Positions 20,110 to 21,386 of a stretch of 64,000 nucleotides of DNA are shown in pieces. The notes under the pieces are model-generated. The model worked only from the letters and a program-made list of their open reading frames with translations. It was not told the DNA's origin and made no database searches. Made by a program: the position numbers and the translations under genes. This DNA is from Xanthostigma xanthostigma (lineage: Eukaryota; Arthropoda; Insecta; Raphidioptera; Raphidiidae): contig OY754465.1 in assembly GCA_963575645.1 (NCBI GenBank), positions 4,836,001 through 4,900,000 on the forward strand, written 5' to 3'. The stretch's first letter is position 1, and every line of letters begins with the position of its first letter.

Positions 20110-21386
20110 CTAGCGGCTTGGCCCGGTTTTACGCGGCTGCAAAAGGTATTTCGTTTGCGGCCCGGCATCTGAACTAATAGCTTCGAGCAAATTCTACCAG
20201 ATTTGCTTCTTAACTAATAGTTTTGAGCAAATTCTACCAGATTTGTTTCTAAACTAATAGCTTTGAGCATATTTGCCAGATTTGCTTCTGAACTAATAAT
20301 TTTGAGCAAAATCTACCAGATTTGCTTCTGAACCAATAGCTTTAAGCAAATTCTAGCAGATTTGCTTCTGAACTAATAGTTTTGAGCATATTCAACCAGA
20401 TTTTCTTCTGAACTAATAGCTTTGAGCAAATTCTATCAGATATGCTTCTGAGCTAATAGCTTTGAGCAAATTCTACCAGATTTGTTTCTAAACTAATAGC
20501 TTTGAGCATATTTGCCAGATTTGCTTCTGAACTAATAATTTTGAGCAAAATCTACCAGATTTGCTTCTGAACCAATAGCTTTAAGCAAATTCTAGCAGAT
20601 TTGCTTCTGAACTAATAGTTTTGAGCATATTCAACCAGATTTTCTTCTGAACTAATAGCTTTGAGCAAATTCTATCAGATATGCTTCTGAGCTAATAGCT
20701 TTGAGCAAATTCTACCAGATTTGTTTCTAAACTAATAGCTTTGAGCATATTTGCCAGATTTGCTTCTGAACTAATAATTTTGAGCAAAATCTACCAGATT
20801 TGCTTCTGAACCAATAGCTTTAAGCAAATTCTAGCAGATTTGCTTCTGAACTAATAGTTTTGAGCATATTCAACCAGATTTTCTTCTGAACTAATAGCTT
20901 TGAGCAAATTCTATCAGATATGCTTCTGAGCTAATAGCTTTGAGCAAATTCTACCAGATTTGTTTCTAAACTAATAGCTTTGAGCATATTTGCCAGATTT
21001 GCTTCTGAACTAATAATTTTGAGCAAAATCTACCAGATTTGCTTCTGAACTAATAGCTTTGAACAAAATCTACCAGATTTGCTTCTGAACTAATAGCTTT
21101 GAGCAATTTCTATCAGAGATTGCTACTCGGTAATAAAACAGTTTTTTGTTTGCTTCTGAACTAATAGCTTCAAACAAATTCTAACAGATGTCGTTGCATG
21201 TTACTAAAACAGTTTTTTTCACAAAACGCCATAAATTTGTACAACATATTTAATAAAAATAATTTATCTTATAGTCTAAGTTGGACCGAGCAAAACATAT
21301 TTACAAAATTTCATTAAAATCGGTGCAGTGATTTTGGGGATTAAGCGCAGACAAAATTTATGATACGAGAATTTTATACATAAAGA
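20110..21386 (-). mobile_element. Helitron-like element carrying a minisatellite
   Basis: On the minus strand it starts A|TCTTTATGTATAAAATTCTC at 21386 and ends ACCGGGCCAAGCCGCTAG|T at 20110, with A and T flanks as expected for Helitrons. The end resembles the other family here (..AAACCGGGCGGGACCGCTAG). Its inner 80% is the tandem array at 20157-21200. There is no Rep/helicase frame, so it is non-autonomous. The start region (ACTGCACCGATTTTAATGAA) resembles the Helitron start near 58080. Confidence 0.8.
20157..21200 (-). repeat. 40-bp minisatellite with 239-bp higher-order repeat
   Basis: About 26 copies of a 39-40-bp monomer (plus-strand CTTCTGAACTAATAGCTTTG then AGCAAATTCTACCAGATTTG). Six distinguishable monomers form a higher-order unit of exactly 239 bp: the marker ATTTGTTTCTAAACTAATAG starts at 20241, 20480, 20719 and 20958. 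Successive higher-order copies look identical by eye, whereas monomers within a unit differ. The right end decays into single diverged monomers up to 21200. Monomers are contiguous with no unique spacers, so it is not a CRISPR array. Confidence 0.95.

Follow-up and report, generated by a model that had tools for sequence, protein, structure and literature searches.

Positions 20110 to 21386 of the window (the whole 64,000-nucleotide stretch of Xanthostigma xanthostigma DNA that was analysed), equivalent to C2:4856110-4857386, hold a non-autonomous Helitron of 1277 bp that reads on the minus strand, as judged from its termini, its flanks and comparison with family copies elsewhere in the genome. 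In that orientation it begins with TC at 21386-21385 (an A, then TCTTTATGTATAAAA) and closes with CTAG at 20110-20113 (GCCGCTAG, then a T), the flanking A and T being the complements of t21387 and a20109, respectively. A preliminary description of this DNA had recognised a small Helitron with CTAG and TC ends and A and T flanks; termini, flanks and family copies all agree with that identification, the positions stand as given, and the strand can now be added. The TC and CTRR termini recur in family copies, and no inverted repeats of 12 bases or more link the two ends, so that at this length the element lacks terminal inverted repeats, as a Helitron should. All parts lie on the minus strand, and the 5' end region (205 bp, 21182-21386) is common to family copies in the genome. 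Two units of about 71 bp (21078-21218; 80% matches by TRF) each end in about 40 bp that the monomer split identifies as monomer-like. The array itself (20165-21080, from the monomer split and the 40-bp TRF row) comprises 23 monomers of 39-40 bp and includes a tract, recognised by lag comparison, of a six-monomer, 239-bp higher-order repeat (HOR) present in about 3.5 units. At the 3' end (20110-20164), comparison with family copies reveals a spacer, a damaged remnant of the family hairpin and the CTAG terminus. The element has a single end of each kind, 5' and 3', with the repeated block lying wholly between them.

The marker sequence described earlier does recur at 20241, 20480, 20719 and 20958, exactly 239 bp apart, and the six monomers then counted per period resolve into five of 40 bp and one of 39 bp. 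TRF reports the array with a period of 239 (3.9 copies, 98% matches, score 1792) over an underlying period of 40 bp (23.9 copies). The six monomers of the unit are 80-90% alike (mean 85.8%) and successive 239-bp units show 0 differences; at lag 239 exact matching continues for up to 590 bases, which gives a perfect tract of 829 bp (20222-21050) without a mismatch. In 300 random orderings of the monomers, the best-lag identity of the real array (0.94 at k=6; 0.82 at lag 1) was reached twice. The array has the mark of an HOR, a multi-monomer unit far more alike than the monomers that compose it. It falls short of a long satellite of hundreds of monomers or more, with 23 monomers here and 182 monomer lengths (7.3 kb) in the largest relative found. 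In alpha satellite and other centromeric HORs, diverged monomers are likewise repeated as a near-identical multi-monomer block; the present array resembles these in structure but consists of about 3.5 units inside a transposon.

The flanks of family copies fit canonical Helitron insertion. Among clean termini, drawn from 69 loci of which the remainder had no terminus passing the rule of the script, TC is preceded by A in 20 of 25 cases and CTAG is followed by T in 23 of 24, against a background of about 0.33 for either base. This is the pattern of insertion between A and T without target duplication, the absence of a duplication being read from the flanks only; a comparison of the joined flanks with the fetched loci gave no junction match to an empty site. 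Helitron features are TC, CTRR and a hairpin, according to the accessible text of PMC6544945, and the family hairpin has the form CCCGG-GTGAAA-CCGGG. In canonical Helitrons the hairpin is short and sits about 10 nt ahead of the 3' terminus. With RNA parameters it folds in four of six copies (L060, L016, L033 and L035), the exceptions being L066 and the window copy; with DNA parameters the damaged hairpin of the window copy gives a weak fold (-7.3 kcal/mol, z 0.82). Helentrons and HINEs are defined, in the part of PMC7492417 available, by an oligo-T insertion site, subterminal inverted repeats and a 3' palindrome. That identity was rejected given the TC and CTAG termini and the A and T flanks found across the family, and subterminal inverted repeats of 12 bases or more are absent from the window copy. 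Elsewhere in the window lie a further Helitron 3' end, related in kind, at 33262-33292 (plus strand; GCAGCCGGGTGAAACCGGGCGGGACCGCTAG, then TT) and, at 58057-58147 (plus strand), a 5'-end fragment of the family to which the 1277-bp element belongs, which begins TCTGTATATAAAAATCTCGTGTC. The window also contains other tandem repeats detected by TRF: two separate short arrays (9265-9341 and 32617-32698) that share a 20-bp unit containing CAATGTCGACAATGCC, two repeats with 100% matches (307 bp x 2.0 at 46613-47231 and 157 bp x 1.9 at 15784-16082), and one with 88% matches (182 bp x 3.0 at 53334-53862).

With 40 of 4789 candidates scored for the whole element, the genome yielded 53 matches, which makes copy numbers minimum values; for the 5' end, 40 of 1262 candidates were scored and 40 matches obtained. 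A set of 40 arrays was assembled from the window copy and 39 regions covering the whole-element matches other than its own, with only the main region of each locus used for array segmentation. Family copies share a layout of a 5' part of about 195 bp, one or two units of about 71 bp, a tract of 40-bp monomers, a spacer that measures 41 bp in many copies, and a 3' end with hairpin and CTAG. Copies with similar ends form a ladder of lengths, 340 (L064), 396, 406, 415 (L060), 459 (L042), 695 (L016), 798 (L020) and 1277 bp (the window copy). The shortest copies measured (340-460 bp) have a few monomers, others have from about 5 to 27, one has 45 and one has 182, so the variation in monomer number between copies with the same ends, proposed in the preliminary description as a check, is indeed observed. 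The 5' model was matched from its first 12 positions at 18 of the 40 array loci, and at 30 the match to the 3' model extends at least as far as position 60 of its 75. Both ends were scored as full at 13 loci, where a full 3' end is any reaching model position 60 and so takes in decayed ends such as that of L010; 26 more have at least one end, whole or in part, and only L017 has none. The partial 5' class includes matches confined to the last 40 or so model positions (L012, L013, L014, L025 and L031), which may represent the internal 71-bp unit and not a true end, and all five of these loci also have a 3' match. Arrays lacking these ends throughout the genome, which would have counted against the preliminary description, were not seen as far as tested: some portion of a family end is matched in 39 of the 40, although the set is biased towards ends, having been picked by similarity to the complete element.

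Non-autonomous Helitrons are moved by the Rep/helicase protein of an autonomous relative. Matches to the Helitron-like N-terminal domain PF14214 number 89 in the genome, and 32 of these lie within open frames of 1547-1575 codons. No autonomous partner with the ends of the family was found among the three PF14214 loci inspected. Open Rep frames of 1560 codons occur in two places (L078-L084; C4 near 22.52 Mb and C6 near 30.87 Mb). L078 and L079 are identical across 3540 bp around Rep, a span in which nothing matches the element significantly (best E 0.25), and their 3' continuation, followed for 5.5 kb, contains no family-like 3' end. The two places are also identical over 2525 bp further downstream, and a 135-bp tandem repeat is found in the downstream part.

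Some family copies have much longer arrays. The largest (L010, G000:C8:8553801-8563800) extends for 7277 bp, or about 182 monomer lengths, and its monomers are 0.93-0.95 alike at lags 40, 80 and 120; its 3' end is decayed and lacks CTAG, no 5' end is matched, and it is a candidate step from a Helitron minisatellite to a free satellite. The next (L009, G000:C3:48986400-48991400) has 45 monomer lengths, its own 5' end and a truncated 3' end. Higher-order periods were assessed by shuffling in the 32 arrays with eight or more monomers under two criteria, the first being that fewer than 5% of shuffles reach the observed value. Uncorrected for the 32 tests, seven arrays passed the first (the window copy, L010 with 20 shuffles only, L017, L025, L027, L033 and L040) and four passed both, namely the window copy and L025 with six-monomer periods and L017 and L040 with three-monomer periods. 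A clear higher-order period by both criteria was lacking in the other 28, and those of L012 (a dimer) and L009 are not significant. At the DNA level, identity rises from 0.69 at lag 40 to 0.94 at 123 bp in L017, from 0.70 to 0.89 at 236 bp in L027, and from 0.69 to 0.80 at 229 bp in L025.

The 239-bp HOR of the window copy is private to its site. In the 623-Mb genome, a 30-mer that spans HOR-specific variants occurs without mismatch only three times, at 239-bp steps and always within the window element, while with up to three mismatches it is found at 1343 places (666 forward, 677 reverse; 0 for the reversed control). The proposal that the HOR itself transposes was rejected because exact matches to this 30-mer are confined to the window copy. 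The suggestion in the preliminary description that a Helitron may seed satellite arrays holds in part: the element has spread a short tract, sometimes found long among family copies (up to 7.3 kb on C8), but no higher-order array has been seen to transpose. The 5' part of the window copy differs by 13.3% from the consensus of 41 copies (mean 7.6%), making it the second most diverged of the 41. With a 5' part this diverged and units without a single difference, the HOR appears to have arisen, or to have been last homogenised, well after the insertion. On the evidence of these sequences, then, the HOR is younger than the insertion or recently homogenised; its most likely origin is unequal exchange or slippage at the site itself, and gene conversion in an older array could also yield identical units, in which case its apparent youth may reflect recent homogenisation.

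The reading favoured here, to which a probability of roughly 0.85 is assigned, is that of a non-autonomous canonical Helitron (TC to CTAG, between A and T) with a minisatellite born from its own sequence, in which the 239-bp HOR formed after insertion and is private to the site. The subterminal unit of about 71 bp would have been duplicated, with its last 40 bp turned into the monomer, and the family would have spread carrying a short monomer tract. After insertion on C2, slippage or unequal exchange may have lengthened this tract to 23 monomers, and duplication of a six-monomer block at least twice would have produced the HOR at this one site.

Aberrant rolling-circle replication during transposition, in which the terminator is lost and partial copies are concatenated and then inserted, could alternatively have built the array. 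Such a mechanism has been proposed for tandem truncated Helitrons in plants, as described in the available part of PMC12628747, and tandem pieces of Helitron do occur in this genome: beside the array of L009, at about 4350-4870 in the oriented sequence, is a tandem of about 157 bp made up of fragments of the Helitron 3' end that run in the opposite direction (four matches to the family 3' end at intervals of 157-158 bp). The window copy, with its single pair of ends around a purely internal block, its undiverged HOR units in a diverged element, and a unit whose 30-mer has no exact match outside it, does not fit this account, which is improbable.

Still less probable is that the Helitron captured an existing host satellite that then travelled along with it. 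Capture of tandem repeats by Helitrons has been described (PMC12628747, in its accessible text), and the 1343 places matching the 30-mer with up to three mismatches show that monomer-like 30-mers are common, with C1 to C6 among the matches listed. Against this, the monomer accompanies the 5' end. The 40 matches to the 5' end supplied 30 loci, and with that of the window copy left out, 29 remain that were chosen by this end alone. In 27 of the 29, monomer sequence is found on the same strand within 250 bp downstream (score of at least 40; best single stretch 32 to 153 bp), compared with 0 of 29 for shuffled controls; L054 and L076 have no monomer tract within that distance and on that strand. 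It is thus not the case that the ends are never found around other arrays, an outcome that the preliminary description had taken as counting against it. Only L017 of the 40 arrays, a sample leaning towards ends, is without a recognisable end, and the element's own 71-bp unit closes with a sequence similar to the monomer. Since the 71-bp units end in monomer-like sequence, and since the shortest copy inspected in sequence (L064, 340 bp) already contains such sequence, the minisatellite was probably derived from the element itself and not captured. That the perfect 239-bp repetition is an assembly error is very unlikely, for although perfect repeats are places where assemblers can fail, C2 is chromosome-sized (69 Mb), the array should be short for long reads, and other copies display other, imperfect higher-order periods.

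The element can be placed among systems already described. Satellite-like arrays inside Helitrons and Helentrons are well known from oyster and Drosophila, and the present element is a clear example of this known kind. According to the accessible text of a 2025 review (PMC12628747), such elements often hold central satellite-like arrays whose expansion is named as a source of satellites, and the part of PMC9659126 available names Helitrons as one means by which satellite-like arrays spread. The Pacific oyster Cg_HINE (PMC7492417, available in part) is similar in that non-autonomous rolling-circle ends enclose an array of varying monomer number and are dispersed in the genome; in a tandem-repeat survey, arrays of 2-3 monomers were commonest and the longest had 29.3. 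However, Cg_HINE elements are Helentrons with an oligo-T site and monomers mostly of 140-180 bp, in contrast to the TC and CTAG termini, A and T flanks and 40-bp monomers seen here, and the term 'higher order' occurs 0 times in the available text of that paper. The 154-bp repeats of Drosophila virilis Helitron-2, grouped here with the DINE-1 family, also form a tandem repeat inside a Helitron-type element with many genomic clusters, but there the full-length element is 9.1 kb with four copies of the monomer, and no private higher-order unit is seen in the accessible portion of that source (PMC3833285). Plant tandem truncated Helitrons (Xiong et al. 2016, cited in the part of PMC12628747 available) are likewise Helitron-derived tandem arrays; their unit is a truncated element, whereas here the repeated unit lies inside one element that retains a single pair of ends. 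No title listed by the literature searches describes a higher-order repeat inside a Helitron, titles being weak evidence of absence.

Mature higher-order arrays are huge and old, which makes their beginnings hard to study. A Helitron family that carries one ancestral short tract to many sites amounts to a set of replicate experiments, with the divergence of the ends as a clock, and the window copy, with undiverged HOR units in a diverged insertion, is one clear case and a small natural example of how layered satellites begin. Whether the dispersed family offers many independent starts for satellite birth from a shared handful of monomers, with many copies staying short and some long copies independently gaining private three- or six-monomer HORs that can be dated against the age of the insertion, is at present evenly balanced. 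If that reading is true, the first steps from minisatellite to higher-order satellite could be replayed, and dated, insertion by insertion.
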